In this document: piece after piece, positions 8,129-60,302 of the stretch | Numbering within the stretch: the first letter of the stretch is position 1 | Layout: each line of letters starts with the position of its first letter | Origin: a virus | Direction: 5' to 3' (one strand) | DNA length: 64,000 nt | Virus record (IMG/VR): IMGVR_UViG_3300042314_000891 | Coordinates: 21,799-85,798 of that record | Notes under the pieces: model-generated | The model's input: only the letters and a program-made list of their open reading frames with translations | The model's database searches: none | What the model was told of the DNA's origin: nothing | Made by a program: the position numbers and the translations under genes

Positions 8129-9707
8129 TTTAGATGAGATTTATCAAGAAGTTTTAGAAGAACTTTCTTATAGAGTAGGTATAGTAAATTTACGAAATAA
8201 AAATCACGTAGATATTTTAAGTGAAATATTAGATACTACCGAACTTGCGGAGTACAAATCCGATATTTTGGGTGAGTTGTATAAAAATGTAATAGCTGAA
8301 CTTGATTTTCCAGATAAAGATGCACTTGCTGATTATAAATCTCAACACAAAATGCGTTCAGATACACCCGTAACAATTGCGGGTAAGGAAACAACGGTAG
8401 GTGCAGTAAGTGATACATCTAAAGAAAAACAAAATAAACAAAAAGAAGATTCTAAAAATTCTCAAAAACAACCACCTAAAAGCGATAATTTAAAAAAATT
8501 CTCAAAACCAATGGTTGTGGATAGAACTAATAGATTAGTAAAACTTGCCGAAAAAGTTAAAAATAGCGATAAAGATACACAAAAAAGAGCAGCAATTCTT
8601 ATTAAAAATTGGAATAAATTTATGAATGCTACAACTGAAAAAGAAAAAGTTGAAGCAATGCGTGAAATGGCTGAATATAATCTAATACAAGGACACGCTG
8701 GTGGTAAAAAAGTATATGTTAGTAATTCATTGCCGGTAGATGAAAAATATCTTACAGGTGATAGTGGGGATGAAATAACCAAAGAGATGAATAGGGTTAT
8801 GAAAGAAAATGATATTTACATTCCAATGCGTGGTTCTACTCTAGATAGACAAAAAGCTGATTTAAGTGGAAAACATAACGAAGCTGGTGTAGTTGCTGAA
8901 TTAGATGCATCAAATGAAAATATAAAAAATAGAGATGAAGTTGCAAAAAAATATTCAGAAGTAGGTGGAGATGTAAAAAAATCAGATGAAGATAATAAAA
9001 AAGCTGCAAATGCTGTAAAAGAAAGTATATTACAAAATTTTCCAAATTCAAAAATTATAAAAGCAACTCAAGTTGGTGGTAGAGGTTCAACTGCTTTAAA
9101 TAAACTTGGTATAGACCCAAAAACAGACCCAACTGATATAATGGTTGAAATACAAACGGAATCTGGAGAAACTGTATTTGTAAAATATTCTCTTAAAGTT
9201 TACGATGACCCAAGAAATATAACCATGAAAAATTCGGGTGTAAATAACGCCGGTGAAGTATATCTTGGTGGAGATGCGGGAAATCAAATTGATACATTTA
9301 AGCGTGAATTGGATAAAAAGTATAGTTGGACAAACGAAATGAGTTCAGCTGAACAAAATAAAAATAAAACAGCATACAGACAAGAGTATTTGAAAAAATA
9401 TGCAGAAGAATTGGAAAAAATATCAAAAACACCAGAGGGACAATCTCAATTATTAAAAATGTGGCAATCGGTACATGGGTGTGGTAAAGGTGTAAGTACA
9501 TTGATTACAAACAAAAGAACAGGTGAATCTGTGGTACACTCGCCAGAATACTATTGTAACCCAAAACAACCATTTAAAATAGAATATGATGGGGTAAAAA
9601 TTGTTGTAAATATGAGTGGTAAAGATGATTCTACATATCTACAATTAGACTTGAAAACTGAAAAGAATAATTCTAAAAAATTATTATTCAGACATAGAAT
9701 AAAATAG
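8115..9707 (+). CDS. Large charged protein with possible PD-(D/E)XK-like domain
   Basis: 530 aa from the ATG at 8115 (a GTG at 8106 in the same frame is the alternative); it overlaps the polymerase-like gene by 14 nt, implying translational coupling. Residues about 85-140 are Lys/Gln/Ser-rich and disordered. A mid-C-terminal segment contains GGRGSTALNKLGIDPKTDPT, then DIMVEI and VKYSLKVYDDPRN, a spacing reminiscent of the D...(S/E)xK core of some restriction-type nucleases. A late cysteine pair-like region follows. I cannot name the family; a head/tail structural protein is the alternative. Confidence 0.45.
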   Translation: MILDNLDEIYQEVLEELSYRVGIVNLRNKNHVDILSEILDTTELAEYKSDILGELYKNVIAELDFPDKDALADYKSQHKMRSDTPVTIAGKETTVGAVSDTSKEKQNKQKEDSKNSQKQPPKSDNLKKFSKPMVVDRTNRLVKLAEKVKNSDKDTQKRAAILIKNWNKFMNATTEKEKVEAMREMAEYNLIQGHAGGKKVYVSNSLPVDEKYLTGDSGDEITKEMNRVMKENDIYIPMRGSTLDRQKADLSGKHNEAGVVAELDASNENIKNRDEVAKKYSEVGGDVKKSDEDNKKAANAVKESILQNFPNSKIIKATQVGGRGSTALNKLGIDPKTDPTDIMVEIQTESGETVFVKYSLKVYDDPRNITMKNSGVNNAGEVYLGGDAGNQIDTFKRELDKKYSWTNEMSSAEQNKNKTAYRQEYLKKYAEELEKISKTPEGQSQLLKMWQSVHGCGKGVSTLITNKRTGESVVHSPEYYCNPKQPFKIEYDGVKIVVNMSGKDDSTYLQLDLKTEKNNSKKLLFRHRIK

Positions 9708-27305: not shown

Positions 27306-27866
27306 ATGATTAAAGGGATTGAATGTCCATATATCATTTCCAAACTATCGGAGCATGATTTAATAAAGGAAGATGTTTTAGATTTAATTAATGATGCTGA
27401 ATCAAATCGTTATACATACGCAGAAGATTATACTGATATAACGAGAACTGATTGGAATATTAGTAGAGATATTGAAAGAGAATACACAAAAATTGCAATG
27501 CCTCCTATTGTGGCATTAATGCAAAACAGATTTTTAGAATTGGGTTATAATGAAATGAACATACATAATGTATGGTTTCAACAATACAAAAAAGGTTCAG
27601 AGCATGGTTGGCATGTTCACTTAAATTGCCAATTTACCAATGTTTATTATTTAGATTTACCAGAAGGGGCCCCTAAAACGCAACTTTTAAATCCAATGAA
27701 CCAAAAAGAGATTATAGAGTTAGATGTAAATGAAGGTGATGTTTTAACATTCCCAAGTTTCATTTTACATAGAGCACCAAATGTGGAAAGTAATATAGTA
27801 AAAACTATTATATCATTTAATTCAGATTGTAATATTAAATCAGTTGCTGGTTTATACGATTTTTAA
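27306..27866 (+). CDS. 2OG-Fe(II) oxygenase-like protein 2
   Basis: 186 aa, 3 nt after the previous gene. Metal-site candidates are H-x-H in SEHGWHVHLNCQFTNVYYLD and the distal His in LTFPSFILHRAPNV, with an Arg one residue later and IISFNSD closing the fold. This is the arrangement of putative phage 2OG-Fe(II) oxygenases. Substrate unknown. Confidence 0.65.
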   Translation: MIKGIECPYIISKLSEHDLIKEDVLDLINDAESNRYTYAEDYTDITRTDWNISRDIEREYTKIAMPPIVALMQNRFLELGYNEMNIHNVWFQQYKKGSEHGWHVHLNCQFTNVYYLDLPEGAPKTQLLNPMNQKEIIELDVNEGDVLTFPSFILHRAPNVESNIVKTIISFNSDCNIKSVAGLYDF

Positions 27867-27896
27867 AAAAGTTATAATAAACTTAAAAGATTAGAT

Positions 27897-28433
27897 ATGC
27901 AAAGTATTGATATTTTTCCAATAAGAATATTTGAAAATTATATAGAAGTTCCAGATTCTTTAACCGATGGTATTAGGGAAGATATAAAAGATGATACCAA
28001 ATACGATACTCCAATTGATTGGGATGGCGGTGTGTATTCATCTTTTAATTATGAAAGCAAACTATTATATGGTACTAAAGAGCATAATCAAATAATAGAT
28101 AATGTTATAGAAATAGTTAAAACTACACCACCTTACAATGGATTTGGTGATAATTTTATTTATGAATATAATATGTGGTGGAATTATTATACGGCGGGAA
28201 AGTATCAAGAATACCATAGCCATGCTAACAATATACTTTCTGGAGTTTGGTATTTGAATGATTCAAATGCACATACCGTATTTTGTGATAGGGGTCTTAA
28301 ACACAAAGTTTTACCAACGAAAGGTAAAATAGTTTTCTTCCCATCGTACCTACCACACTATGTAGAACCATCCGATGATGAAAGAATGACAGTAGCATTC
28401 AATTTTCAATTATCAAAGCGGAACGTAAAATAA
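27897..28433 (+). CDS. 2OG-Fe(II) oxygenase-like protein 3
   Basis: 178 aa. KYQEYHSHANNILSGVWYLN followed by FFPSYLPHYVEPSDDERMTV and AFNFQL is the familiar pattern of the putative 2OG-Fe(II) oxygenases frequent in T4-like phages: H-x-H on the early strand, distal His in LPH, Arg in DER binding 2-oxoglutarate. The N-terminus (IFPIRIFENYI) is also typical. It ends the protein-coding run before the RNA island. Confidence 0.75.
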   Translation: MQSIDIFPIRIFENYIEVPDSLTDGIREDIKDDTKYDTPIDWDGGVYSSFNYESKLLYGTKEHNQIIDNVIEIVKTTPPYNGFGDNFIYEYNMWWNYYTAGKYQEYHSHANNILSGVWYLNDSNAHTVFCDRGLKHKVLPTKGKIVFFPSYLPHYVEPSDDERMTVAFNFQLSKRNVK

Positions 28434-28451
28434 AAAAAAAGATATATATAA

Positions 28452-28483
28452 TTTGGAATTACGAAAAAAGTTTCGTATATTTG
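28452..28483 (+). promoter_or_regulatory. Strong promoter of tmRNA
   Basis: TTTG at 28452-28455 and TATATTTG at 28476-28483, 20-nt spacer, with a perfect 7-bp inverted repeat TACGAAA/TTTCGTA at 28460-28477 between the boxes. Confidence 0.8.
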
Positions 28484-28502
28484 TAAACGTTATTTGAAAT
28501 AT

Positions 28503-28888
28503 GGGGATGACCGGCTTTTGACAGGTATGAAGACTGGTTGTATTGATGCAAGTAAGGTTAGATGGAAACCTTTGAAGACCTATCAAACAATAAGTGCAAA
28601 CGTAGAATTATCTACAATGACGTTCGAAGATGCTATGGCATGGATGAACTCATTCGATTACGCAGTAGCTGCCTAATCAATCCCGCATCACTCGTGGGAC
28701 TTAAAAAGAAGTGAACAATTTAAGGTCTCGTTTGAGGTTCTACCTATTAAAGTGAATCTTCCACATTTGAGAGTGGCAATGGCAAAATAGAAACTCTATA
28801 TTTTTTCAGTTTAGAAAAATTGAATAAACTTGTGAACGATTTACATTAGAAACTTATTTGGACTTGGGTTCGAATCCCAACATCTCCA
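28503..28888 (+). ncRNA. ssrA: Phage-encoded tmRNA
   Basis: 386 nt. The 5' end GGGGATG pairs with CATCTCC at 28881-28887 in a 7-bp acceptor stem; the 5' domain contains the tmRNA-typical CCGGCTTTTGACAGG and the 3' domain the T-arm TTGGG-TTCGAAT-CCCAA. The tag frame begins at GCA 28596 (as in most tmRNAs), reads ANVELST... and ends ...FDYAVAA before TAA at 28674-28676, 26 residues, longer than the usual 8-15. The terminal YAVAA is the protease-targeting end. CCA is not encoded. tmRNA frees stalled ribosomes with SmpB; no smpB gene is in the window, so host SmpB would be used. Confidence 0.93.
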
Positions 28889-28890
28889 CA

Positions 28891-28944
28891 AAAAATAAAT
28901 GAGAAATCATTTGGATATATGAAAAAAGTTTCGTATATTTGTAT
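28891..28944 (+). repeat. Promoter cassette direct repeat, copy 1
   Basis: 54 bp identical to 29029-29082. It contains a full promoter: TTTG 28910-28913, TATATTTG 28934-28941, 20-nt spacer. It drives the initiator-like tRNA. Confidence 0.9.
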
Positions 28945-28954
28945 CATAATAAAT

Positions 28955-29029
28955 CGCGGGGAGGATGTTGGTTTCCCACCGGTCTCATAAGCCAGGTCTA
29001 CGATAGTTCGATTCTGTCTCCCGCAACCA
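28955..29029 (+). tRNA. Initiator-like tRNA-Met (CAT)
   Basis: 75 nt with encoded CCA. The acceptor reads CGCGGGG against TCCCGC-A, leaving the C1-A72 mismatch that marks bacterial initiator tRNAs. Anticodon loop CTCATAA. T-arm GATAG-TTCGATT-CTGTC is intact; D-arm and anticodon stem are somewhat degenerate (GG pairs kept, third GC pair lost). Confidence 0.75.
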
Positions 29030-29082
29030 AAAATAAATGAGAAATCATTTGGATATATGAAAAAAGTTTCGTATATTTGTAT
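29029..29082 (+). repeat. Promoter cassette direct repeat, copy 2
   Basis: 54 bp identical to 28891-28944. Carries TTTG 29048-29051 and TATATTTG 29072-29079 with 20-nt spacer and drives the small RNA at 29091. Confidence 0.9.
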
Positions 29083-29090
29083 TATAGAAA

Positions 29091-29170
29091 ATGAGGTTAG
29101 TATGCCGGTGTGGAGAAGTCCGGTGTTAAGAGGACCCGAGAGGTAGAAATACCATCCCACTACTCATCCA
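29091..29170 (+). ncRNA. Small structured RNA with its own promoter
   Basis: About 80 nt. Closing pairing ATGAG (29091-29095) with CTCAT (29163-29167), extended by TAG/CTA across a 2-nt bulge; internal hairpins GTCC/GGAC and GGTA-GAAA-TACC (GNRA tetraloop), and GTGG/CCAC. CCA follows the closing stem. It has tRNA size and a CCA-like end but no T-loop and no clear anticodon, so it is not a normal tRNA. Family unknown. Confidence 0.55.
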
Positions 29171-29192
29171 ACAAAAAAAAAGTAAAAATAAT

Positions 29193-29223
29193 TTTGATAT
29201 ATGGAAAAAGTTTCGTATATTTG
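29193..29223 (+). promoter_or_regulatory. Promoter of the giant RNA
   Basis: TTTG 29193-29196 and TATATTTG 29216-29223 with a 19-nt spacer. Sequence around it is close to the other RNA-island promoters. Confidence 0.75.
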
Positions 29224-29230
29224 TATTATA

Positions 29231-30140
29231 GATTTGAGACCAATAGGTGATGAAAGATACTCGGTTAATCAAATTAAAAATGTTCTTTAAAATATAAGCA
29301 CATAGTAGACTAGTTCTACATAGTGTACATCGGCCGCCTATGGTCGTGAAATAAACTACGAAAGTAGGATAAAGTGAATCATTTGGTTTAAGTGATTTGC
29401 GGCTTCGAAAGGAGCTTGAGTAGGCAAGTGGAATATCATTTCACCTTTAGTATTGAGGGTAACACTGTAAAGAGGGTGGTGAAATGACTGGGCTAAAGTA
29501 GATAGTTCAGTTGAGGTGGGAACACCAATAAGAATAATCCATAGAGTTATTGCGAGAAACTGAAACTTAATCCCTTTCAACAATTGCGTGATTCAATATT
29601 AGAGTTTGCTTAAAACCGAAAGGTAAGATAAAGTACGAGTGGTGTCGTTATTATCCTTACTCTTCACCTACCAAGGTAGGAGTTATGAAGCAAACTTAAA
29701 GTATGGTGTTAGGGATAACACATCGAGTAGTTCAGTATTCTGTTGTTCAAAAGATAACGGAGCAGGTTGGCGAACCACTACTTGAAACCATCTACAAACC
29801 AAACTCAATTTGCCGGTTAGTGCAAACTATAAACAAAAAGAGCAAAAGTGTTCGTCAGTTGCAAACGAAAGGTGCGTACATAGTAGGGAGTTGTTCCTTG
29901 CCACGATACCTCCGCAAGAGGTCTGTGATTCTTTCGAAAAACTTCTAACACCGCAAGTGTGAATCTGTTCGGCAGAGTAGAAGAAGCGGAGTAAAGAGAG
30001 AGTAGTTTGTAACTTTATGAGTGGTTGGCTTAACTAACCCGCATTGAATCGGTACTATCCAAAAGATAGTGGAAAAGTTGGGAAACAATAATCCAACGAA
30101 AGCTGGTTCTTTTACGTGAGTATTCTCATCCGTAATAATA
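29231..30140 (+). ncRNA. Giant structured noncoding RNA (GOLLD/ROOL-like class suspected)
   Basis: About 0.9 kb without a credible gene, directly after a strong promoter and ending just before a tRNA. It is full of perfect helices: GATTTGAGACC near 29231 with GGTT-AA-TCAAATT; CTAC-GAAA-GTAG (29356-29367); GCTTC-GAAA-GGAGC (29402-29415); CATTTCACC/GGTGAAATG (29437/29478); AGTTCAGTT/AACTGAAACT (29504/29558); GGTG-GGAA-CACC (29515-29526); AGTTTGCTT/AAGCAAACT (29603/29688); CCTACC/GGTAGG (29667/29675); GTGTTA-GGGA-TAACAC (29706-29721); two hairpins with CGCAA loops (29908, 29948); ACTATC/GATAGT (30054/30065); and a 3' hairpin TTACG-TGAG-TATT-CTCA (30112-30135). Large ornate RNAs next to phage tRNAs are known (GOLLD, ROOL); membership cannot be proved by eye. 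Confidence 0.75.
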
Positions 30141-30143
30141 TAA

Positions 30144-30217
30144 GCGAGATTGGTGTAATGGTAGCACATCGGCCGTCCAGGTCGGAGGAGGGGGTTCAAT
30201 TCCTTTGTTTCGCTCCA
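30144..30217 (+). tRNA. tRNA-Gly (TCC), atypical loop
   Basis: 74 nt with CCA. Acceptor GCGAGAT/GTTTCGC, discriminator T as in tRNA-Gly. Anticodon loop CGTCCAG puts TCC at 34-36 but position 33 is G instead of T. T-loop TTCAATT. Confidence 0.7.
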
Positions 30218-30220
30218 TAA

Positions 30221-30293
30221 GCGGAGAAAGTGTTCCGGTAGCATGTGTACATTCCTGTACAATGAGGTGGTTCGATTCCATCTCTCCGCTCCA
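30221..30293 (+). tRNA. tRNA-Gly-like (TCC), irregular anticodon loop
   Basis: 73 nt with CCA. Acceptor GCGGAGA/TCTCCGC, discriminator T. Anticodon stem TGTAC/GTACA encloses only ATTCCT, a 6-nt loop (or 8 nt if the last pair opens). T-arm with TTCGATT intact. Anticodon probably TCC; decoding ability uncertain. Confidence 0.6.
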
Positions 30294-30378
30294 AAATTTA
30301 AATTATAAAATAATAACCAATATTACTATTTTTAACTTAAAATAAAAAAAAGTTATATATATTAAAAGAAAAAAGAAA

Positions 30379-30522
30379 ATGAAAACTCTTAACCTACATA
30401 CGATAGCTTATCAACCGACATCAAATTTGATGTGGGCAGGCAATCGCGTGTGTGATTTTAGTTCGAAAGGAATTAAAAATCAGTTAGGGGCAACAATATT
30501 AAACGATGTAGACTTGGGATAA
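30379..30522 (+). CDS. Possible 47-aa peptide gene
   Basis: ATG at 30379 opens 47 codons (MKTLNLHTIAYQPTSNLMWAG...) ending TAA 30520-30522. It lies alone in a 300-nt gap between tRNAs and ahead of a terminator. Upstream is very A-rich, as at other starts here. No family is recognisable, and a small regulatory RNA covering the same stretch is an equal possibility. Confidence 0.4.
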   Translation: MKTLNLHTIAYQPTSNLMWAGNRVCDFSSKGIKNQLGATILNDVDLG

Positions 30523-30549
30523 AACCAAACTACATACTTAAATTAAAAC

Positions 30550-30581
30550 AACCCCTGACTCAAAAAGTTAGGGGTTTTTTT
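30550..30581 (+). terminator. Rho-independent terminator
   Basis: AACCCCTGACT pairs with AGTTAGGGGTT (one mismatch) around a short A-rich loop, followed by seven T. It would end the transcript of the giant RNA/tRNA-Gly segment and small ORF. Confidence 0.8.
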
Positions 30582-30595
30582 ATGTTTAAAAATAA

Positions 30596-30667
30596 GTTGA
30601 TGTGGCGCAGTGGTAGCGCAGTAGACTGTTAATCTATTGGTCGTAGGTTCGAATCCTACCATCAACG
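30596..30667 (+). tRNA. tRNA-Asn (GTT)
   Basis: 72 nt. Acceptor GTTGATG/CATCAAC, discriminator G, anticodon loop CTGTTAA in stem TAGA/TCTA, T-loop TTCGAAT. CCA not encoded. Confidence 0.92.
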
Positions 30668-30699
30668 CAAGAATAAGTTCTTTGACATAATGGTGAAAT

Positions 30700-30772
30700 A
30701 GTGGGTTAGCTCAATTGGTAGAGCGCCGTCTTTACATGGCGGATGTTGGGGGTTCAAGTCCCTCACTCACTA
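30700..30772 (+). tRNA. tRNA-Val (TAC)
   Basis: 73 nt. Acceptor AGTGGGT/ACTCACT, anticodon loop TTTACAT in stem CCGTC/GGCGG, T-loop TTCAAGT. CCA not encoded. Confidence 0.9.
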
Positions 30773-30780
30773 CAATAGAT

Positions 30781-30854
30781 GTCCGTATGACGTAATTGGC
30801 AACCGTGCTGGTTTTAGAAACCAGATTGTGTAGGTTCGAATCCTACTATGGACA
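30781..30854 (+). tRNA. tRNA-Leu (TAG), short variable arm
   Basis: 74 nt. Acceptor GTCCGTA/TATGGAC, anticodon stem CTGGT/ACCAG with loop TTTAGAA, T-loop TTCGAAT. The variable region is only a few nt, whereas bacterial tRNA-Leu normally has a long variable arm, so the charged amino acid is less certain. Confidence 0.75.
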
Positions 30855-30893
30855 CAGGTAGTTCCCGATGCTACATATCAAAATCGGACTTGG

Positions 30894-30970
30894 GGAGTAG
30901 TGGCAGATGAGGTTCATTGCGCTGGACTGAAAATCCAGAGGAACAGGTTCGATACCTGTCTGCTCCACCA
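30894..30970 (+). tRNA. tRNA-Phe (GAA)
   Basis: 77 nt with CCA. Acceptor GGAGTAG/CTGCTCC, anticodon loop CTGAAAA in TGGA/TCCA, T-loop TTCGATA. Confidence 0.9.
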
Positions 30971-30972
30971 AT

Positions 30973-31045
30973 GAACTCGTAGCTCAATTGGTAGAGCACT
31001 ACACTTTTAATGTAGGGGTTTTGGGTTCGATTCCCAACGGGTTCA
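30973..31045 (+). tRNA. tRNA-Lys (TTT)
   Basis: 73 nt. Acceptor GAACTCG/CGGGTTC, anticodon loop CTTTTAA in CTACA/TGTAG, T-loop TTCGATT. CCA not encoded. Confidence 0.92.
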
Positions 31046-31051
31046 CAATAT

Positions 31052-31124
31052 AGGGTGGTATATCAATGGTTAGATTACTTGCTTTGGGAGCAAGAGGCTG
31101 TGAGTTCGAGTCTCGCTCACCCTA
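31052..31124 (+). tRNA. tRNA-Pro (TGG)
   Basis: 73 nt. Acceptor AGGGTGG/TCACCCT, anticodon loop TTTGGGA in CTTGC/GCAAG, T-arm GTGAG-TTCGAGT-CTCGC. CCA not encoded. Confidence 0.9.
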
Positions 31125-31127
31125 CAC

Positions 31128-31201
31128 AGAGATATAGCTCAATTGGTTAGAGCACCGACCTGATACGTCGGGGGTTATAGGTTCGAGTCCTATTTTCTCT
31201 A
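31128..31201 (+). tRNA. tRNA-Ile (GAT)
   Basis: 74 nt. Acceptor AGAGATA/TTTCTCT (one mismatch), D-stem GCTC/GAGC, anticodon loop CTGATAC in CCGAC/GTCGG, T-arm ATAGG-TTCGAGT-CCTAT. CCA not encoded. Confidence 0.92.
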
Positions 31202-31204
31202 CAC

Positions 31205-31240
31205 TTTTTCAACTTTTAGATAAAGGTTGGAAAATTTTTT
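31205..31240 (+). terminator. Terminator-like hairpin
   Basis: TTTTTCAACTTT pairs imperfectly with AAAGGTTGGAAAA, followed by six T (31235-31240), between tRNA-Ile and tRNA-Trp. Confidence 0.5.
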
Positions 31241-31271
31241 GAAGGTAATTTTTTACTTTGGAAATAAATAC

Positions 31272-31342
31272 ATGTCTTTGGTGCAATGGTAGCATATCGG
31301 TCTCCAAAACCGCAGATGAAAGTTCGAATCTTTCAGGACGTG
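31272..31342 (+). tRNA. tRNA-Trp (CCA)
   Basis: 71 nt. Acceptor ATGTCTT/AGGACGT, discriminator G, anticodon loop CTCCAAA in CGGT/ACCG, T-loop TTCGAAT. CCA tail not encoded. Confidence 0.88.
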
Positions 31343-31346
31343 CAAT

Positions 31347-31418
31347 GGTTCTATGGTGTAATGGATAGCACCTGACACTACGGATGTCAAAGTTGGAGTT
31401 CGAGTCTCTATGGAACTA
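31347..31418 (+). tRNA. tRNA-Arg (ACG)
   Basis: 72 nt. Acceptor GGTTCTA/TGGAACT, anticodon loop CTACGGA in TGACA/TGTCA, T-loop TTCGAGT. Reading CGN codons needs A34-to-inosine editing by host TadA. Confidence 0.88.
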
Positions 31419-31424
31419 CATTAT

Positions 31425-31495
31425 GGTGAATTGTCCGAGTGGTTAGGGAGTGCTCTGCAAAAGCATTTACATTGGTTCGAATCCAATATTCACCT
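31425..31495 (+). tRNA. tRNA-Cys (GCA)
   Basis: 71 nt. Acceptor GGTGAAT/ATTCACC perfect, discriminator T as expected for Cys, anticodon loop CTGCAAA, T-loop TTCGAAT. Confidence 0.92.
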
Positions 31496-31496
31496 C

Positions 31497-31573
31497 GTTG
31501 TTTATAGTGTTAATGGTCAGCACGTCAGTTTGTGGTACTGATAGTATGGGTTCGAATCCCATTAAACACCCCA
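31497..31573 (+). tRNA. tRNA-His (GTG)
   Basis: 77 nt with CCA. Extra 5' G pairs with C73 as required for His; anticodon loop TTGTGGT in TCAGT/ACTGA; T-arm ATGGG-TTCGAAT-CCCAT. One mismatch at acceptor position 1. Confidence 0.85.
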
Positions 31574-31576
31574 TAT

Positions 31577-31649
31577 TGCGTGGCTTGGTGGAAAAGAGCT
31601 ATCTCTCATAAGGAAAGCCAAGTGGGTTCGAACCCCACACACGCAACCA
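31577..31649 (+). tRNA. tRNA with CAT anticodon (Met or lysidine-Ile)
   Basis: 73 nt with CCA. Acceptor TGCGTGG/ACACGCA, anticodon loop CTCATAA, T-arm GTGGG-TTCGAAC-CCCAC. Anticodon stem weak. Elongator Met or Ile(ATA) cannot be told apart here. Confidence 0.75.
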
Positions 31650-31695
31650 TAAAATAAAAAAGTAAAAAATGTTAGGAAATATAAAATAAATGTTG

Positions 31696-31703
31696 TATAT
31701 TTG
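31696..31703 (+). promoter_or_regulatory. -7 box of the lipoprotein gene
   Basis: TATATTTG at 31696-31703, 25 nt before the ATG at 31728; the -33 element (TTAGG near 31670) is weak. Confidence 0.5.
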
Positions 31704-31727
31704 TTAAATAAAATCTAAAAGTTAAAT

Positions 31728-33917
31728 ATGAAAAAGTTACAAATCACTCTAATAGGTATTTTCCTATTATTAGGTTGTGCAAAGGAAGAAGCACTACAAC
31801 CAACAATAATTGATACTCCACCATCTGTATTCACAGAGGATGCAATCAATGTTACACTAAAATCTGCATTTGTTGTAGGTAAAGTACAAGATGTTGCATA
31901 TTCACCTACAATTGAACGTGGGTTTATTTATGCAAGTAATGCAGATGTGAATGGATATGGTAATACCATTAAATTAGATACGAATATTACAATATTCAAA
32001 TCACAACTAACCAAACTAACCCCCAATAAAACTTATTACTATAAAGCATACGCCAAAAACAAATATGGTACTGCTTATGGTGAATTGAAGAATTTTACAA
32101 CGGGAGATTATCTTTTACCAACTTTAACTACCGATAGTTTAGGCAATATAACTCTTACATCGGTAAAACTATATGGTAATATCACAGATGATGGCGAAAC
32201 GCCCATATTAAAGCGTGGATTCTGTATTAGTACTAACCCAACACCAACAACTACCGATAGCACATTCAATACGGGTAATGGGATGGGTTTATTTGATTTA
32301 GTTGTAATCAAACTAAAAGCAGGTACAAAGTACAATGTTCGTGCCTTTGCTACAAATGCTATGGGTACATCCTATGGTAAAGAAATCAGTTTTTCAACAT
32401 TAGATTATAAACTACCTACAATCCAAACAAATTCAGTAACGGATATTGGATTAAATGTAGCAACATTAAGTGGGAATGTAAAAGATTTAGGTAGAGGTGA
32501 GTTAAAGGAACGTGGGATAGTTTTATCCAAATCACAAAACCCAACTATTGATGATATGAAATTCAAATCATCGGTTACGGATTTGGGAGAGTATAAGATT
32601 GTAGTTACTAAATTAGAAGTAAATACTAAATACTACGCAAGAGCATATACGCAGAATGAAGCAGGTATTGTATATGGTGATGAAGTAAATTTCTCAACAT
32701 TAGATTATACATTTGCAAAAATATCTACCAACGATATTGGGAATATCTCATTTAGGAGTGCAAGAATTGGTGGTGAGGTTACAAACGAAGGTAATACACC
32801 CGTAACTGAAAGAGGTGTAGTAATTAGTAGAGAGAAAACACCTACAATTTCAGATAGAAAACTTACAGTAGGAAATGGTTTGGGTGGATATATGGTAGAT
32901 GTAAATGAACTGATACCTAATTCAACATACTATATTAGAGCATATTGTATAAACTCAAAGGGTATAGTTTATGGTAATGAACGAAATTTCAGAACTTTGG
33001 ATGATACACCTCCACCAGCTCCAATAGTATCTATACCTACTATACCATCATCGCCTACAACACCACCACCAACAACATTTGTACCTGGACCTGTTGTAAC
33101 AACACCACCACCAACACTATCGGCATTGCCGGAGTATGTGAGTGTACCTGATAGTAGATTTGAACAGGCACTAATAGATAGAGGATACGATTTTGTATTG
33201 GATGGTAGAATAAGAACTGCACCAATCGCAAATGTAACTACAATTGAGATATTAGATAATATGAATATCAGTAATATCAGAGGTATAGAAGCATTCCCTA
33301 ATCTACAACGATTGCGTATTATTCACAATCAAATTAGTAGTGTAGATTTATCTAAAAATCCTAACTTAACTTGGGTTTCCTTTTGGGATAATAAATTGAC
33401 AAGTATTGATGTGAGTTCATTGTATAAGTTAGAGTATTTTGGAGCAGGTGATAATGATATTGTAACATTTGATGTTTCCAGAAATTACAATCTAAATGAA
33501 TTGGATTTTGGTAATACGGAAGGTAGAGCTGGATATGGAACAACTCGAGGTGTAACATCTATTGATATTTCACACAATCCAAAAATGCGCAGATTATATA
33601 TGCAAAACAATAGATTGACAAGTTTGAATATTAGTAGAAATAAATTGATTGAAGATGTTTGGGCGCATGATAATAAAATTGAATCTTTGGATTGTAGTAA
33701 TAACCCGAATTTATCATTTATAATAATGTGGAATAATAATTTAAGATACTTAAATATAAAAGGAACATATCAGGGTGGAGTGCCAGCACGTTTATATACA
33801 AAAAATAACCCTAATTTAGCAGAAATTAAAGTTACAAATGCAAGTAATATTTTAGCAAGAAGACAATTTTGTGAATATTGTTTCGTAATAGATAGTTGGA
33901 CAAAATATGTAGAATAA
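31728..33917 (+). CDS. Surface lipoprotein with four FN3-like repeats and a leucine-rich repeat domain
   Basis: 729 aa. A signal peptide with lipobox LLLGC (Cys at 17) predicts lipidation. Four consecutive repeats of about 95 residues follow, each with the pattern ERGF/ERGI ... LxxNTxYYxRAYxxNxxGxxYG, a beta-sandwich module common in Bacteroidota surface proteins. A Pro/Thr-rich linker at about 425-465 leads to a C-terminal leucine-rich-repeat domain with units such as NISNLRGIEAFPNLQRLRI-like LxxLxIxxN. It is inserted inside the tRNA array, with its own promoter, and reads like a host-derived moron that could mask receptors or bind surfaces. Confidence 0.8.
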   Translation: MKKLQITLIGIFLLLGCAKEEALQPTIIDTPPSVFTEDAINVTLKSAFVVGKVQDVAYSPTIERGFIYASNADVNGYGNTIKLDTNITIFKSQLTKLTPNKTYYYKAYAKNKYGTAYGELKNFTTGDYLLPTLTTDSLGNITLTSVKLYGNITDDGETPILKRGFCISTNPTPTTTDSTFNTGNGMGLFDLVVIKLKAGTKYNVRAFATNAMGTSYGKEISFSTLDYKLPTIQTNSVTDIGLNVATLSGNVKDLGRGELKERGIVLSKSQNPTIDDMKFKSSVTDLGEYKIVVTKLEVNTKYYARAYTQNEAGIVYGDEVNFSTLDYTFAKISTNDIGNISFRSARIGGEVTNEGNTPVTERGVVISREKTPTISDRKLTVGNGLGGYMVDVNELIPNSTYYIRAYCINSKGIVYGNERNFRTLDDTPPPAPIVSIPTIPSSPTTPPPTTFVPGPVVTTPPPTLSALPEYVSVPDSRFEQALIDRGYDFVLDGRIRTAPIANVTTIEILDNMNISNIRGIEAFPNLQRLRIIHNQISSVDLSKNPNLTWVSFWDNKLTSIDVSSLYKLEYFGAGDNDIVTFDVSRNYNLNELDFGNTEGRAGYGTTRGVTSIDISHNPKMRRLYMQNNRLTSLNISRNKLIEDVWAHDNKIESLDCSNNPNLSFIIMWNNNLRYLNIKGTYQGGVPARLYTKNNPNLAEIKVTNASNILARRQFCEYCFVIDSWTKYVE

Positions 33918-33949
33918 TTTGGATATATGAAAAAAGTTTTGTATATTTG
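33918..33949 (+). promoter_or_regulatory. Promoter of second tRNA array segment
   Basis: TTTG 33918-33921, TATATTTG 33942-33949, 20-nt spacer; nearly the same cassette as at 28891 and 29029. Confidence 0.8.
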
Positions 33950-33956
33950 TAGAGTT

Positions 33957-34039
33957 GCTCGAATGTTGGAATGGTAGACAAGACAGACTTAAAATCTGTT
34001 GTCCGTATGGGCGTGTGGGTTCAAGTCCCTCTTCGAGTA
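33957..34039 (+). tRNA. tRNA-Leu (TAA)
   Basis: 83 nt. Acceptor GCTCGAA/TTCGAGT, anticodon loop CTTAAAA in CAGA/TCTG, long variable arm (TTGTCCGTATGGGCGTG region), T-loop TTCAAGT. CCA not encoded. Confidence 0.9.
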
Positions 34040-34045
34040 CATAAT

Positions 34046-34122
34046 GGGGATTTAGTTCAGTTGGCTAGAACGCTTGATTTGCATTCAAGAGGTCGTGGGT
34101 TCGAATCCCACTTTCTCCACCA
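34046..34122 (+). tRNA. tRNA-Ala (TGC)
   Basis: 77 nt with CCA. Acceptor GGGGATT/TTTCTCC with two mismatches at its base, D-stem GTTC/GAAC, anticodon loop TTTGCAT in CTTGA/TCAAG, T-loop TTCGAAT. Confidence 0.88.
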
Positions 34123-34132
34123 AAAGAAATAT

Positions 34133-34240
34133 GCCGGAGTGGCGGAACAAATGGGAAGTACAACCATTAGACGTGCCTGATTCGAAGTGGTGCAGTAACC
34201 GAAAAGGACTGCGTGTGGGTAGCCAATCCCTCCTCCGGTA
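34133..34240 (+). ncRNA. tRNA-like RNA with D-loop insertion
   Basis: 108 nt. Acceptor GCCGGAG/CTCCGGT is intact, the following TGGCGGAAC ... AGACGTG matches a class II tRNA D-arm but with about 20 extra nt in the D-loop, and GCAGT/ACTGC (34190-34210 region) resembles a long variable arm. The anticodon arm is not regular and the T-loop reads TAGCCAAT instead of TTCGAAT. Either a decayed tRNA-Leu/Ser or a repurposed tRNA-like RNA. Confidence 0.5.
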
Positions 34241-34247
34241 CCTTATT

Positions 34248-34295
34248 TATCGTTGAAAGAAACGATATTAGATTTTATCGTTAGATTAAACGATA
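34248..34295 (+). repeat. Two tandem identical-stem hairpins
   Basis: TATCGTT-N6-AACGATA occurs at 34248-34267 and again at 34276-34295, the second ending 1 nt before a tRNA. The loops differ (GAAAGA, AGATTA), so the stem is conserved. May be an RNA-processing or protein-binding site. Confidence 0.7.
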
Positions 34296-34296
34296 T

Positions 34297-34370
34297 GGAC
34301 TTGTAGCTCACTCGGTTAGAGCAGTTGACTCATAATCAAAAGGTAGTAGGTTCGATTCCTACCTGGTCCA
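34297..34370 (+). tRNA. tRNA with CAT anticodon (elongator Met or Ile)
   Basis: 74 nt. Acceptor GGACTTG/CTGGTCC (one mismatch), D-stem GCTC/GAGC, anticodon loop CTCATAA in TTGA/TCAA, T-arm GTAGG-TTCGATT-CCTAC. CCA not encoded. Confidence 0.85.
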
Positions 34371-34590
34371 CAACGAGTAAGAGATACTCGGTAGTCTTTA
34401 ATCCAAGACTCATTTAACAATGGATAGGGTATTGGACCGGACATCCTTAAACGCCGGTGTCGTGGGAATAAAGGAGAACGACACATCTCCTCCCCGTAGT
34501 GTTGACTTTTTAAGCAGTAAGATGCATTGGGTTTTTGAAAGGAAAAACTATAAATAACTACTCACAAGTAATCTCAATGTGGGGAAATTT
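34371..34590 (+). ncRNA. Structured RNA with H-type pseudoknot, family unknown
   Basis: 220 nt between two tRNAs without an ORF. Helices: GAGTA/TACTC, AGTCTT/AAGACT, GGAT/ATCC, ACCGG/CCGGT, and GTGTCGT (34457-34463) with ACGACAC (34478-34484). The loop of the latter holds AGGAGA (34472-34477), which pairs with TCTCCT at 34486-34491, making a pseudoknot. GTTTTT/AAAAAC and a possible TCCCC/GGGGA long-range pairing lie near the 3' end. Confidence 0.55.
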
Positions 34591-34665
34591 GCAGGTATAG
34601 CACAGTGGTTAGTGCTCTGGTCTTCCAAACCGGAGACGTCAGTTCGAATCTGACTACCTGCTCCA
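34591..34665 (+). tRNA. tRNA-Gly (TCC)
   Basis: 75 nt with CCA. Acceptor GCAGGTA/TACCTGC, discriminator T, anticodon loop CTTCCAA in CTGGT/ACCGG, T-loop TTCGAAT. This is the regular tRNA-Gly of the array, unlike the two at 30144 and 30221. Confidence 0.92.
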
Positions 34666-34780
34666 TAAGGAGCTCCCGCTTTAAGGTGAAGGACACGCGG
34701 GCGAATAACTTTCAGAGTAAGTTGTAAAAGAACTCGAAACCTTAAGTCTAGTGTGGGATGAGACTCCTACCCACACATTT
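34666..34780 (+). ncRNA. Small structured RNA with pseudoknot, family unknown
   Basis: 115 nt between tRNA-Gly and tRNA-Tyr. Stem CCCGC (34675-34679)/GCGGG (34697-34701) encloses TTAAGGT (34681-34687), which pairs with ACCTTAA at 34739-34745: a pseudoknot. Further hairpins AACTT/AAGTT (34707/34719) and GTGTGGG/CCCACAC (34751/34770). Confidence 0.55.
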
Positions 34781-34864
34781 GGGAGTATCGCATAGTGGCA
34801 ATTGCGGGTGACTGTAAATCACTTCTCTACGAGTTCGGAGGTTCGAGTCCTTCTACTCCCACCA
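34781..34864 (+). tRNA. tRNA-Tyr (GTA)
   Basis: 84 nt with CCA. Acceptor GGGAGTA/TACTCCC perfect, anticodon loop CTGTAAA in GTGA/TCAC, long variable arm, T-loop TTCGAGT. Confidence 0.92.
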
Positions 34865-34880
34865 AATAATCCCAATAAAG

Positions 34881-34912
34881 TTTGGAATTATAAAAGAAAA
34901 TACTTATATTTG
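34881..34912 (+). promoter_or_regulatory. Promoter of tRNA-Glu segment
   Basis: TTTG 34881-34884, TATATTTG 34905-34912, 20-nt spacer; tRNA-Glu begins 6 nt later. Confidence 0.75.
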
Positions 34913-34917
34913 TAAAT

Positions 34918-34991
34918 GCTCCGTTCGTCTAATTGGTTAGGACATCCGCCTTTCACGTGGAAGCTTACGGGTTCGATTCCCGTACGGAGTA
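34918..34991 (+). tRNA. tRNA-Glu (TTC)
   Basis: 74 nt. Acceptor GCTCCGT/ACGGAGT, anticodon loop CTTTCAC in TCCGC/GTGGA, T-loop TTCGATT. CCA not encoded. Confidence 0.92.
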
Positions 34992-34993
34992 CA

Positions 34994-35085
34994 AAAGATT
35001 AACGTAAGTCGCCTATGTGGGTGAAACTAATTCCTCATTTGGGGAAGAGAAGATGTGATTTCTTTAATAGGTGTAGTTAATCTTT
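34994..35085 (+). ncRNA. Small structured RNA closed by a 10-bp stem
   Basis: 92 nt that fill the space between tRNA-Glu and tRNA-Thr. AAAGATTAAC (34994-35003) pairs perfectly with GTTAATCTTT (35076-35085). Inside are GCCTAT/ATAGGT (35011/35067) and TTCCTC-ATTT-GGGGAA (35031-35046). No ORF. Family unknown. Confidence 0.6.
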
Positions 35086-35089
35086 AATT

Positions 35090-35162
35090 GCTTCCGTAGC
35101 TCATATGGTAGAGCAGCTGACTTGTAATCAGCAGGTGGTTGGTTCGAGCCCGACCGGAAGCT
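35090..35162 (+). tRNA. tRNA-Thr (TGT)
   Basis: 73 nt. Acceptor GCTTCCG/CGGAAGC, discriminator T, D-stem GCTC/GAGC, anticodon loop CTTGTAA in CTGA/TCAG, T-loop TTCGAGC. Confidence 0.92.
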
Positions 35163-35253
35163 CCGATTGATGTTTCGTTTGATGGTATGTTTTTAAGTTG
35201 CCAAAGTGCCGAAAGGATTACTTGATAAGTAAAAAGGATAAACCATCGTATTT
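35163..35253 (+). ncRNA. Possible structured RNA spacer
   Basis: About 90 nt between tRNA-Thr and the tRNA-like RNA. GATGGT (35181-35186) pairs with ACCATC (35242-35247), and TTACTT/AAGTAA (35218/35227) forms a tight inner hairpin. Weaker case than its neighbours. Confidence 0.4.
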
Positions 35254-35403
35254 GGCTCTATAATTGTTGAGGTAGCACCAAAGACAATGAGTGGGTGAAT
35301 GATGATTAAATGTAGGTGACACTCCTTAATACTAGGATTGGAGAGAAGAGTTGGTGCATTTAGTAAGTAGTTCATAAGATGGGTTCGATTCCCATTAGAG
35401 CTA
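35254..35403 (+). ncRNA. 150-nt tRNA-like RNA (acceptor and T-arm around an insert)
   Basis: Acceptor GGCTCTA (35254-35260)/TAGAGCT (35396-35402), discriminator A, T-arm ATGGG-TTCGATT-CCCAT are all intact, but instead of a normal D and anticodon arm there is a 7-bp helix GCACCAA/TTGGTGC enclosing about 70 nt. The layout resembles the tRNA-like domain of tmRNA. CCA not encoded. An intron-bearing or decayed tRNA is the alternative. Confidence 0.6.
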
Positions 35404-35594
35404 CAAAACAAACGAAGACTATGGTGTAACCCCATGGTATATAAAATCCAAAATGGTCCTGTTGAAGCCGGAATAGTCATACAGGTCAGGAGAGAGTTAC
35501 TATAAGTGGGGAGTAATTAACCCAATACGAAATGTAACCACCAATGAAAATTGGTTATGATGTGTAGAAGGACACAAAAAGTTTGTTTTAATTT
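35404..35594 (+). ncRNA. Structured RNA with pseudoknot, family unknown
   Basis: 190 nt between the tRNA-like RNA and tRNA-Asp. GACTAT (35417-35422) pairs with ATAGTC (35473-35478) while CCTGT (35458-35462), inside it, pairs with ACAGG (35481-35485) beyond it. A perfect ACCAAT-GAAA-ATTGGT hairpin (35540-35555) has a GNRA loop. No credible ORF. Confidence 0.55.
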
Positions 35595-35668
35595 AGTTCG
35601 TTGGTGTAGAGGCCCAACATGCTTCCCTGTCACGGAAGAGACCACGGGTTCGAATCCCGTACGAACTG
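35595..35668 (+). tRNA. tRNA-Asp (GTC)
   Basis: 74 nt. Acceptor AGTTCGT/ACGAACT, discriminator G, anticodon loop CTGTCAC in CTTCC/GGAAG, T-loop TTCGAAT. CCA not encoded. Confidence 0.92.
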
Positions 35669-35673
35669 CGAAT

Positions 35674-35744
35674 TGCTCGATGGTGTAGCGGTAGCACAAC
35701 TGTTTTTGGTGCAGTTAGGGTTGGTTCGAATCCAGCTCGGGTAA
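35674..35744 (+). tRNA. tRNA-Gln (TTG)
   Basis: 71 nt. Acceptor TGCTCGA/TCGGGTA, anticodon loop TTTTGGT in stem ACTGT/GCAGT, T-arm GTTGG-TTCGAAT-CCAGC. Confidence 0.87.
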
Positions 35745-35761
35745 CATTAAATAATATTATT

Positions 35762-36103
35762 ATGAAAGAATTAGGAATGTCTATTATGCTTTTATTCAAC
35801 ACATTGGGTGGTTCAATTGACCCAAAGTTTAGTGATGAAGCACCTTTGGTTGAAACTATAAAAATTGAAATCAGAGAATTACAAAGAAAAATCCAATGGG
35901 TTGATGCAACCGATGAGGATTATGCAAGTAAGTATGTTCGTATAGAAAAATTATCGAAAGATATTATAAAGAAAAAAGAACAACTTAAAAATATGGAGAA
36001 ACGTGCCAAACTTAAACAAAAGTGGGCATTGGAAGATTCATTGGAAATCCGTAAGAAATATCCACCAATTGTTTTGGATACTTTAAAGTCAGAACAAATT
36101 TAG
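35762..36103 (+). CDS. Coiled-coil protein of unknown function
   Basis: 113 aa. A short hydrophobic start (MSIMLLFNTLGG) precedes a long charged heptad-like helix (about residues 30-85, rich in Lys, Glu and Leu) and an IRKKYPPIVLD end. No family recognised. It stands alone between tRNA genes, without an obvious promoter of its own, so is probably transcribed with them. Confidence 0.55.
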   Translation: MKELGMSIMLLFNTLGGSIDPKFSDEAPLVETIKIEIRELQRKIQWVDATDEDYASKYVRIEKLSKDIIKKKEQLKNMEKRAKLKQKWALEDSLEIRKKYPPIVLDTLKSEQI

Positions 36104-36108
36104 TAAAA

Positions 36109-36194
36109 GGAGGGTTGGCAGAGTTGGTCTATTGCACCGGTCTTGAAAACCGGAGTCTGTAACAGGACCGTGAGTTCGAATCTCACACCCTCCT
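36109..36194 (+). tRNA. tRNA-Ser (TGA)
   Basis: 86 nt. Acceptor GGAGGGT/ACCCTCC, anticodon loop CTTGAAA in CCGGT/ACCGG, long variable arm, T-arm GTGAG-TTCGAAT-CTCAC. Confidence 0.92.
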
Positions 36195-36199
36195 CATCT

Positions 36200-36271
36200 G
36201 GCTCCATAGGTAAACGGATATACCGTCGCTCTTCTAAAGCGAATTTCCAAGTTCGATTCTTGGTGGGGCTA
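36200..36271 (+). tRNA. tRNA-Arg (TCT)
   Basis: 72 nt. Acceptor GGCTCCA/TGGGGCT, anticodon loop CTTCTAA in TCGCT/AGCGA, T-arm CCAAG-TTCGATT-CTTGG. Reads AGA/AGG, frequent in this AT-rich genome. Confidence 0.92.
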
Positions 36272-36277
36272 CAATAT

Positions 36278-36366
36278 AGAGGGTTGGGTGAGTGGCTTAA
36301 ACCAGCAGTTTGCTAAACTGTCGTGGGGGTAATTCTCCACCAGCGGTTCGAATCCGCTATCCTCTA
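36278..36366 (+). tRNA. tRNA-Ser (GCT)
   Basis: 89 nt. Acceptor AGAGGGT/ATCCTCT, anticodon loop TTGCTAA in CAGT/ACTG, long variable arm, T-arm AGCGG-TTCGAAT-CCGCT. Confidence 0.9.
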
Positions 36367-36394
36367 CATTTGTTATAAGTTAATATTTATAGGT

Positions 36395-36753: not shown

Positions 36754-36914
36754 TGTGATGTGGCGAAATTGGCAGACGCACCCTCCTGTCTCGGGGGCGG
36801 GGATAAATAAATAAAGTAAGAATAATAAAGGGGTTGACCACCTAGCTTCCGGAAGCGCCAAAAATTGTTCTTTACCTAATTACCTTATGGATGGTTCGAA
36901 TCCTCCCATTACAG
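36754..36914 (+). ncRNA. 161-nt tRNA-like RNA with variable-region insertion
   Basis: Acceptor TGTGATG (36754-36760)/CATTACA (36907-36913), discriminator G; D-arm GCG/CGC; anticodon-like arm CCCTC-CTGTCTC-GGGGG (36781-36797, nominal anticodon GTC); T-loop TTCGAAT in a stem with two mismatches. About 90 nt are inserted between anticodon and T arms, including GCTT-CCGG-AAGC. A hairpin AAGGTT/AACCTT (36731-36747) precedes it. Intron-bearing, decayed or repurposed tRNA. Confidence 0.5.
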
Positions 36915-36931
36915 CAATTAAACCAAACAAA

Positions 36932-37462
36932 ATGAAACTGCGTAAGATATTAAAAGAAATACAAAAGACACCATATCAGTATGGGTGTGCAATGTTATAC
37001 ATAGATTTTGATGAATCTATATTGACAAGTACAATTAGTAATGTTGATGTATATGATGATGAGAATGGTCACTATGGTTTAGAAACAGAACCACACGTTA
37101 CATTACTATATGGTTTACATACAAATGTACCAGATGGTGTAGTTTCTCAAATTATCAACCAAGTTCCGTTTGGTGATATTAAACTAACAAACCCATCTAT
37201 TTTCGAAGGTAACCCAGATTACGATGTATTAAAGTTTGATGCAAGTGGTGAGGGATTACAAAGAGCAAATGAGTTATTAAAAAAGCTACCACATTCAAAC
37301 GATTACCCAGAATACAATCCACATATGACTGTGGCTTACTTAAAGAAAGGTAAGTGGCAACAATATACAAATAAGTTTATGCAGATGCAATTTGAAGTTT
37401 CACCATTATATGTCATTTATAGTAAAAGCGATGGTAGTAAACACAAATTTAAAATAAGGTAA
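36932..37462 (+). CDS. 2H phosphoesterase (2'-5' ligase/CPDase-like)
   Basis: 176 aa from ATG 36932. The two H-x-T motifs are HVT at 55-57 (PHVTLLYGLH) and HMT at 131-133 (NPHMTVAYLK), spaced as in 2H phosphoesterases, which open 2',3'- or 2'-5' phosphodiesters. Candidate jobs are RNA-end processing, suggested by the tRNA island directly upstream, or cleavage of cyclic-oligonucleotide immune signals as done by T4 Acb1, which has the same fold. Sequence alone cannot decide. An upstream in-frame ATG (36887) would overlap the tRNA-like RNA. Confidence 0.75.
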   Translation: MKLRKILKEIQKTPYQYGCAMLYIDFDESILTSTISNVDVYDDENGHYGLETEPHVTLLYGLHTNVPDGVVSQIINQVPFGDIKLTNPSIFEGNPDYDVLKFDASGEGLQRANELLKKLPHSNDYPEYNPHMTVAYLKKGKWQQYTNKFMQMQFEVSPLYVIYSKSDGSKHKFKIR

Positions 37463-59559: not shown

Positions 59560-60272
59560 TGTATAAATACATAATCGCATCCGATTTACATTTAGGTACA
59601 AAACATAGTAAAGCAAAGGAGTTCTTACAATTCATAGAAGAAAACCCCTGCGAACAACTTATTCTCAATGGGGATATAGTTGATGGGTGGGCATTACAAA
59701 GAGGAACTAAATGGAGAACATCTCACACAAAGGTAATTGCTAAACTAATTAAATTATCTACAAAACAAAAGGTAGTTTGGATAAGAGGTAATCACGATGA
59801 TTTTCTAAAAGATTTTACGGGTACTAATTTGGGTAATATAAAAATCAGAGAAGATTATATTATCACCGCAGATAAAAGATACTTTATATTTCATGGAGAT
59901 ATTATAGATGTTTTTATTACAAAATACAAATGGTTATCACAAATAGGAGCATTTGGATATGATTTTGCTTTATTGCTAAATGATGTGTATAATCGGTATC
60001 GTAAGTGGAGAAACCTACCATATTATTCAATCTCACAAAGAATAAAAGAGGGTGTTAAGATAGCAACAAACTATGTTAATGATTTCGAAACAACTGCAAT
60101 TAAAATGGCAAGTGATAAGATGTGTGATGGGGTTATTTGTGGGCACATACACCAACCTGCAGATAGAATGATTGGTAAAAAACACTATCTTAATTCAGGT
60201 GATTGGGTTGAGAATATGACAGCAATTTGTATAAAATTGGATAATACAATTGAGGTTAAATCTTTTAAGTGA
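59559..60272 (+). CDS. LpxH-like metallophosphoesterase
   Basis: 237 aa. ASDLHLGTKHSKA, LNGDIVDGW, IRGNHDDF, YFIFHGDIID and CGHIHQPAD are the complete calcineurin-type metal motifs in the order seen in UDP-2,3-diacylglucosamine pyrophosphatases. LpxH hydrolyses a lipid A precursor. With the GT2 gene it suggests alteration of lipopolysaccharide during infection. Substrate not proven. Confidence 0.8.
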   Translation: MYKYIIASDLHLGTKHSKAKEFLQFIEENPCEQLILNGDIVDGWALQRGTKWRTSHTKVIAKLIKLSTKQKVVWIRGNHDDFLKDFTGTNLGNIKIREDYIITADKRYFIFHGDIIDVFITKYKWLSQIGAFGYDFALLLNDVYNRYRKWRNLPYYSISQRIKEGVKIATNYVNDFETTAIKMASDKMCDGVICGHIHQPADRMIGKKHYLNSGDWVENMTAICIKLDNTIEVKSFK

Positions 60273-60302
60273 TATTTATATAAGTAGAAAATATCATAAT
60301 GA

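Follow-up and report, generated by a model that had tools for sequence, protein, structure and literature searches.

Identification of a full-length GOLLD in a phage stable-RNA region

The window, a stretch of 64,000 nucleotides that is part of a virus record of 85.8 kb, carries at 29231-30140 a 0.9-kb stretch that is almost certainly a full-length GOLLD, a known class of giant phage RNA. As a whole, we consider it likely that this GOLLD lies among the stable-RNA genes of a phage that probably infects Bacteroidota, forms a cage and is transcribed behind an rRNA-type leader. The stretch had been singled out, with the same coordinates, in an earlier description made without database searches (the sequence-only reading), and that observation is confirmed here. 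The features of the locus are as follows.

28503-28891, plus strand: tmRNA (ARAGORN, Rfam)
28955-29029, plus strand: initiator-like tRNA-Met(CAT) with its own promoter
29193-29223, plus strand: GOLLD-unit promoter of the Bacteroidota type (TTTG ... TATATTTG; pattern match)
29231-29275, plus strand: U1 leader element, a conserved core enclosed by the stem GATTTGA/TCAAATT (own model, covarying stem)
29282-29290, plus strand: boxA-like motif GTTCTTTAA
29330-29722, plus strand: GOLLD 5′ domain, outside the Rfam model, conserved in homologs and with covarying pairs
29723-30132, plus strand: GOLLD 3′ domain, RF02032 positions 1-416
29787-29841, plus strand: variable, tRNA-free linker (39-73 nt in most homologs)
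29842-29843, plus strand: kissing dinucleotide, pairing with 29914-29915 in a CCGCAA loop; likely bridge B7
29914-29915, plus strand: kissing partner
29952-29957, plus strand: loop of a hairpin, its AA preceded by a self-complementary dinucleotide; likely bridge B8
30144-30217, plus strand: tRNA-Gly(tcc), directly 3′ of GOLLD (ARAGORN and Rfam tRNA)

On the plus strand, a tmRNA, a tRNA-like gene, a small unit (~29088-29172), the GOLLD unit and a tRNA array of 25 genes (ARAGORN; 30144-36367) follow one another. Near-identical promoters are present at 28452, 28910, 29048, and 29193, one for each of the first four units, so that the GOLLD unit is headed by a promoter, as the sequence-only reading had proposed; we take the class of the TTTG ... 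TATATTTG promoters to be that of Bacteroidota. The phage origin assumed in that reading is correct, as this is a virus record in which phage replication genes are found, with genes resembling UvsX recombinase, DnaB helicase, ribonucleotide reductase, and DNA polymerase. Its Bacteroidota host is probable and fits the two signals on which the assignment rests, the promoter type and the match of the boxA-like motif to Bacteroidota 16S leaders. Within the phage collection, the closest DNA polymerase is that of a Microcystis phage (49.6%), which is no help in assigning the host.

The Rfam GOLLD model (RF02032; cmscan, Rfam 15) matched 29723-30132 over all 416 model positions with 292.6 bits at a cut-off of 150. 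This model covers the 3′ domain only, while the conserved core runs from about 29330 to 30132, and covariation (below) points to a structured 5′ domain without fixing its identity with the 5′ domain of the solved GOLLD. ROOL (RF03087) gave no match in the window at its cut-off, nor in 28400-30350 at E values up to 1. The sequence-only reading had proposed this search and had expected a far relative of GOLLD or ROOL or else a new class; the GOLLD affiliation stands, but the RNA is neither a new class nor a marginal relative. GOLLD has been described from phages and beside tRNA genes (PMC12286853; PMC6582537, in the parts of both available to us). The likeness to the GOLLD of PMC12286853, in the part available, extends to the sequence and structure of the 3′ domain, the two-domain layout, the variable linker, the cage-type kissing contacts, and the tRNA and phage context, whereas the window's linker differs in being shortish and without a tRNA.

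Because the 5′ half lies outside the Rfam model, the RNA might be thought to belong to a new giant class merely resembling GOLLD; the full-length model match at almost twice the cut-off, which ruled out a new class as a candidate, and the conservation of the cage-type contacts make this highly improbable. A protein-coding or degenerate region would account for the short ORFs that are present in all frames, and has a smaller chance still, given compensatory changes in both halves and the lack of a long ORF. The longest ORFs wholly inside the stretch are 81 aa (plus strand) and 75 aa (minus strand), in line with the earlier statement that no credible ORF is present, and a 105-aa minus-strand ORF at the end of the stretch reads through tRNA-Gly. 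In addition, the core folded better than 20/20 dinucleotide shuffles (z -3.2), none of which folded equally well.

A blastn match in Chryseobacterium phage MA9V-2 turned out to be a promoter match, and the ten stretches retrieved from bacterial genomes with one DNA pattern contained no GOLLD by Rfam. In 148 genomes from the order to which a Marinilactibacillus genome belongs, no GOLLD was found, with controls equally silent and hence an uninformative result.

Covariation and cage-type contacts

Two pattern scans of IMG/VR yielded at least 190 loci, one of which (L001) is a copy of the window. Among these, 105 match the window's GOLLD and 88 are near full length, including the 5′ half. The window and 86 of the 88 (two ran off contig ends) were kept and reduced to 50 rows at 95% identity, the other 49 non-redundant rows being 57-82% identical to the window GOLLD among the matches listed. 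With three later loci, this gave 53 full-length rows for covariation, for which the null was generated in an R-scape-like manner by inferring substitutions on a tree and redistributing them 20 times. In these 53 rows, 27 of 417,430 column pairs, distributed over both domains, scored above every null score, and all 27 were complementary in at least 83% of rows. Long-range covarying pairs were 29338-29423, 29429-29541, 29861-30010, 29863-30008, and 29875-30041, and the kissing pair 29843-29914 also exceeded every null score. The two-domain fold is under selection. The covariation test on homologs that the sequence-only reading had proposed thus gave a strong signal, here with an R-scape-like procedure and not R-scape itself; that reading had named missing covariation or a conserved ORF as findings that would speak against an RNA, and with strong covariation and no long ORF both tests favor one. 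Throughout, p values are indicative only, since related loci are not independent.

The GNRA loops noted from the letters are real and conserved in the 53 homologs. The CTAC-GAAA-GTAG hairpin is paired in 99.5% of cells, and GGTG-GGAA-CACC and GTGTTA-GGGA-TAACAC in 100%; the second GAAA hairpin occurs as CCGAAAGG in 42/53 rows, with GAAA kept on a different stem in six more. Two of the three long-range stems that had been proposed, CATTTCACC/GGTGAAATG (91% paired) and AGTTTGCTT/AAGCAAACT (86%), hold in these homologs, but the third, AGTTCAGTT/AACTGAAACT, is paired in only 65-67% and is unsupported. The covarying pairs 29488-29510 and 29493-29505 favor a competing local helix at its place, itself imperfect at 61% when gaps are left out of the count. 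As for the linker, ARAGORN placed no tRNA inside it in any of 50 loci, and the tRNA of L027 starts at the GOLLD 3′ end.

The two CGCAA hairpin loops of the sequence-only reading exist (29912-29917 and 29952-29957) and are the sites of both cage-type contacts. Positions 29842-29843 are complementary to 29914-29915 in 53/53 rows, as GC/GC in 31, GG/CC in 19, GA/UC in two, and UC/GA in one. In the loop at 29952-29957, the dinucleotide, as read from the loop variants, is self-complementary in 53/53 (GC in 37, CG in 14, AU in two), lying one column over in the 14 CG rows because the loop is one base longer. The available part of PMC12286853 describes a kissing bridge between L20 and J13/15 (B7), found via covariation, and a self-kissing loop, L21a, with GC/CG switching (B8). 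The contacts in the window resemble these intermolecular bridges, with which they are equated by description and not by residue number.

A boxA-like motif precedes GOLLD and Bacteroidota 16S

A search of 165 nt around the core start found the motif GTTCTT[TA][GA]A in 49/50 non-redundant GOLLD leaders, among the matches listed, vs 0.17 expected by shuffling; in the exception, L080, the motif lies 19 nt past the reference point. Counting all loci, 84/85 leaders carried it among the matches listed, a figure that omits L001 and two loci short of upstream sequence. The distance from motif to core is 19-120 nt. As background, the same contigs contain 77 copies elsewhere, in 1.12 Mb counted on both strands, including the L080 leader copy, and nine of the other 76 lie at most 80 nt upstream of a tRNA or tmRNA gene (163 tRNA and four tmRNA genes by ARAGORN). 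Within the window's tRNA array, a boxA-like GTTCTTTGACA is present at 30677, 23 nt before a tRNA-Val gene.

The motif was also present in 6/6 further GOLLD loci, several of them close kin, and in the huge-phage record LR745206, tRNA-Met, motif, and GOLLD stand consecutively. The GOLLD of the other of two huge-phage records, LR756502, is without the motif, as is the leader of the divergent GOLLD of L099 (224 bits), and a boxA leader is therefore not universal among GOLLDs. The L099 RNA (8184-8635) lies on a contig with 26 tRNA genes. Before ROOL, no clear case was seen in five loci, where strings like TTGAAAAC close to the start offer no more than a lead.

In Bacteroidota, 10/14 informative 16S loci carry the motif 82-217 nt upstream of 16S; 16 loci were examined, two with only ~35 nt of upstream sequence were left out, and two genomes give two loci each. 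Of the four without an exact motif, three have close variants and one a weak variant by eye. In 34/50 GOLLD leaders, counted by hand without the window's own, the motif is preceded at a distance of 2-4 nt by a hairpin of 4-6 bp, both strands of whose stem vary among leaders. Leader hairpins scored 11.9 on average vs 7.1 for shuffled sequence, but taken singly they are unexceptional, with a mean of 13.6% of shuffles scoring at least as high. A hairpin followed by boxA is also the order found in rRNA leaders. The GOLLD leader resembles the boxB-boxA-boxC rRNA leader in sharing the motif of Bacteroidota 16S near the transcription start, and may do so in this order as well; it differs in preceding a giant phage RNA, in the replacement of the hairpin by U1 in the window, and in that its factor binding is putative. 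The names boxB, boxA, and boxC for elements of rRNA operon leaders are used in PMC10250234, in the part available to us.

Two other short promoter-driven leader units besides U1 recur upstream of GOLLD, one in L015 and L095 (GGTTGTAAAGATTCC) and another in L034, L048, and L097 (GGTTGACAAT...TTATAAAAC).

The U1 element

In this phage, the position of the leader hairpin is occupied by U1 (45 nt), whose conserved core GATGAAAGATACTCGG is at 29249-29264. The U1 model matched 29227-29280 with 59.2 bits, the window row having been in the model, and finds the element in 9/50 GOLLD loci among the matches listed. In 23 chosen rows, stem covariation was 0.533 vs 0.261 in shuffles, none of 500 being as high, and a control with a sliding partner gave at most 0.183.

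A scan for the 16-nt core, carried out independently of GOLLD, found at least 119 stretches with 74 distinct contexts. A regular expression accepted 63 of these and rejected 11, among which there seem to be some genuine variants. Among the matches listed, 39/63 accepted copies lie 59-419 nt upstream of a GOLLD, 21/63 have a strict boxA 12-24 nt downstream (within 40 nt), and 30/63 have a looser boxA pattern within 90 nt. The 24/63 copies without a downstream GOLLD, again among the matches listed, include four with less than 400 nt of sequence left, and are often followed by tRNA genes or by ORF-free stretches of some hundred bases, possibly unnamed phage RNAs. In L248, L250, L259, L263, and L317, U1, in some cases with boxA, heads an ORF-free stretch ending in a hairpin and T run; these five stretches gave no Rfam match except for a tRNA elsewhere in L263.

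No Rfam family covered U1 in the window (E up to 1) or in 15 further loci (curated cut-offs), and none of 198 Bacteroidota genomes contained it in a search without a positive control. Seven records in the phage collection, with a best E-value of 1, were taken as chance. The core string did not occur in the literature searched, a scope outside which most subscription papers fall.

Two readings compete with an antitermination leader. The GTTCTT motif, being within the transcript of nearly every homolog, could belong to the GOLLD fold or mark a site of processing and not be a boxA. We regard this as unlikely, given the 19-120 nt over which its distance to the core varies, its position at the head of 16S and of some tRNA and tmRNA genes, and the hairpin that precedes it in 34/50 leaders. 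A closer contest concerns U1, which could act as a 5′ stabilizer, a processing site, or a ligand-binding switch, its invariant core binding a protein or ligand, and this gains from the strict boxA being within 40 nt in only the 21/63 copies counted above among the matches listed. Against it, U1 starts units that lack ORFs (GOLLD, tRNA, and other ORF-poor stretches), a position more in keeping with a leader directed at the polymerase than with a switch controlling a coding gene, and still compatible with a stabilizer, and we put these alternatives for U1 together at slightly under an even chance.

An initiator-like tRNA-Met and the 3′ end

A tRNA-Met(CAT) lies at most 600 nt from GOLLD in 16/50 loci, compared with at most three loci for any other isotype, among the matches listed; four of the 16 genes were found by pattern or eye and not by ARAGORN. 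With ARAGORN alone, the count is 12/50 among the matches listed (p 1.2e-6, with related loci that are not independent), and in 34/50 loci no tRNA-Met is nearby. A mismatched 1:72 pair is a mark of initiator tRNAs. This mismatch was present in 12/12 of the ARAGORN tRNA-Met genes near GOLLD vs 2/8 farther away, L047 and L048 fitting poorly. The window's own gene at 28955-29029, whose D arm looks reduced, was called by neither ARAGORN nor Rfam (E up to 1), but its letters are identical in L042 although the two GOLLDs share only 82% identity. A Met-tRNA upstream of GOLLD env-38 is mentioned in the available part of PMC12286853. In L203, a freshwater-1 RNA (1586-1648; 72.4 bits at a cut-off of 72) shares a tRNA array with a GOLLD.

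The 3′ end of the window's GOLLD is probably set by processing at the adjacent tRNA-Gly, and in some relatives a final hairpin and T run may make it instead. A T run of six or more was present at the 3′ end in 23/53 relatives and a tRNA directly after in 8/53. Exclusion between the two was not significant (53 rows: T run only 20, tRNA only five, both three, neither 25; p 1).

Proposed function and comparison with known RNAs

In the mechanism that we propose, a host-type promoter would start the GOLLD RNA, and U1, or the hairpin in relatives, together with boxA would let the polymerase finish an untranslated 0.9-kb RNA. As such an RNA is prone to early termination, the phage would be using the host's solution for rRNA. 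On balance, we favor a role for the leader hairpin or U1 followed by boxA in recruiting NusB/S10-type factors that keep RNA polymerase going. The two domains would then fold, copies would join through the kissing loops into a cage, and the 3′ end would be made by processing at tRNA-Gly. By analogy with the relative studied in PMC12286853, described in the part available as a hollow RNA cage and a 14-mer by cryo-EM, the GOLLD subunits very probably self-assemble into a closed RNA cage, and a subunit number of 14 would be taken over from that relative. The same source, again in the part available, refers to ribosome pull-down and to an increase in expression at lysis for GOLLD. What the cage most likely does, a suggestion that we make tentatively and hold to be rather doubtful, is bind or retain components of translation (tRNA, ribosomal subunits) at a late stage of infection.

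The broader proposal, to which we give about even odds of being right, is that Bacteroidota phages transcribe RNA cages in the manner of rRNA by way of a host-type boxA, and that some add U1 as a nut- or put-like antitermination leader for untranslated phage RNAs, acting with RNA polymerase or a phage factor, often beside an initiator-type tRNA-Met. The put RNA of phage HK022, a structured element close to where a phage transcript begins, renders the polymerase terminator-resistant; it serves as an analogy for U1 only, without a sequence comparison. ROOL (RF03087) is likewise a giant phage RNA near tRNAs and cage-forming (PMC12286853, in the part available), but differs in sequence and in showing no clear boxA in the five loci.

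Neither the boxA leader nor U1 nor the recurrent tRNA-Met features in the GOLLD description in the available part of PMC12286853. No paper in the literature searched contained "GOLLD" and "boxA" together, the original GOLLD paper and most subscription papers being outside its scope. The boxA leader, U1, and a general link to initiator tRNA are therefore new only as far as searched, while GOLLD itself is known. GOLLD cages have no known function, and the boxA link to the host rRNA transcription machinery offers a testable handle: a boxA-like motif in 49/50 leaders of one phage group suggests that GOLLD has to be transcribed to its full length without translation. The recurring initiator-type tRNA-Met beside GOLLD points, more weakly, to translation start. 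U1 may also serve as a marker for other untranslated phage RNAs, as the 24/63 copies without GOLLD, among the matches listed, include several before ORF-poor stretches.

Further observations in the window

Between the tRNA-like gene and GOLLD, 29048-29172 is another small unit; it has a promoter to itself and a GGTA-GAAA-TACC hairpin, and gave no Rfam match (E up to 1). Adjoining the tmRNA, two neighboring genes at 27306-28433 match 2OG-Fe(II) oxygenase, and a tRNA gene at 30221-30293 has an anticodon that ARAGORN could not name. Downstream of the array, 36887-37462 encodes a protein with a 2′-5′ RNA ligase domain, whose match to the anti-CBASS protein Acb1 is below the cut-off (25.7 bits vs 27). 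The region 60001-61000 has a GC content of up to 0.46, vs roughly 0.3-0.4 across most of the window, and contains long overlapping ORFs on both strands.
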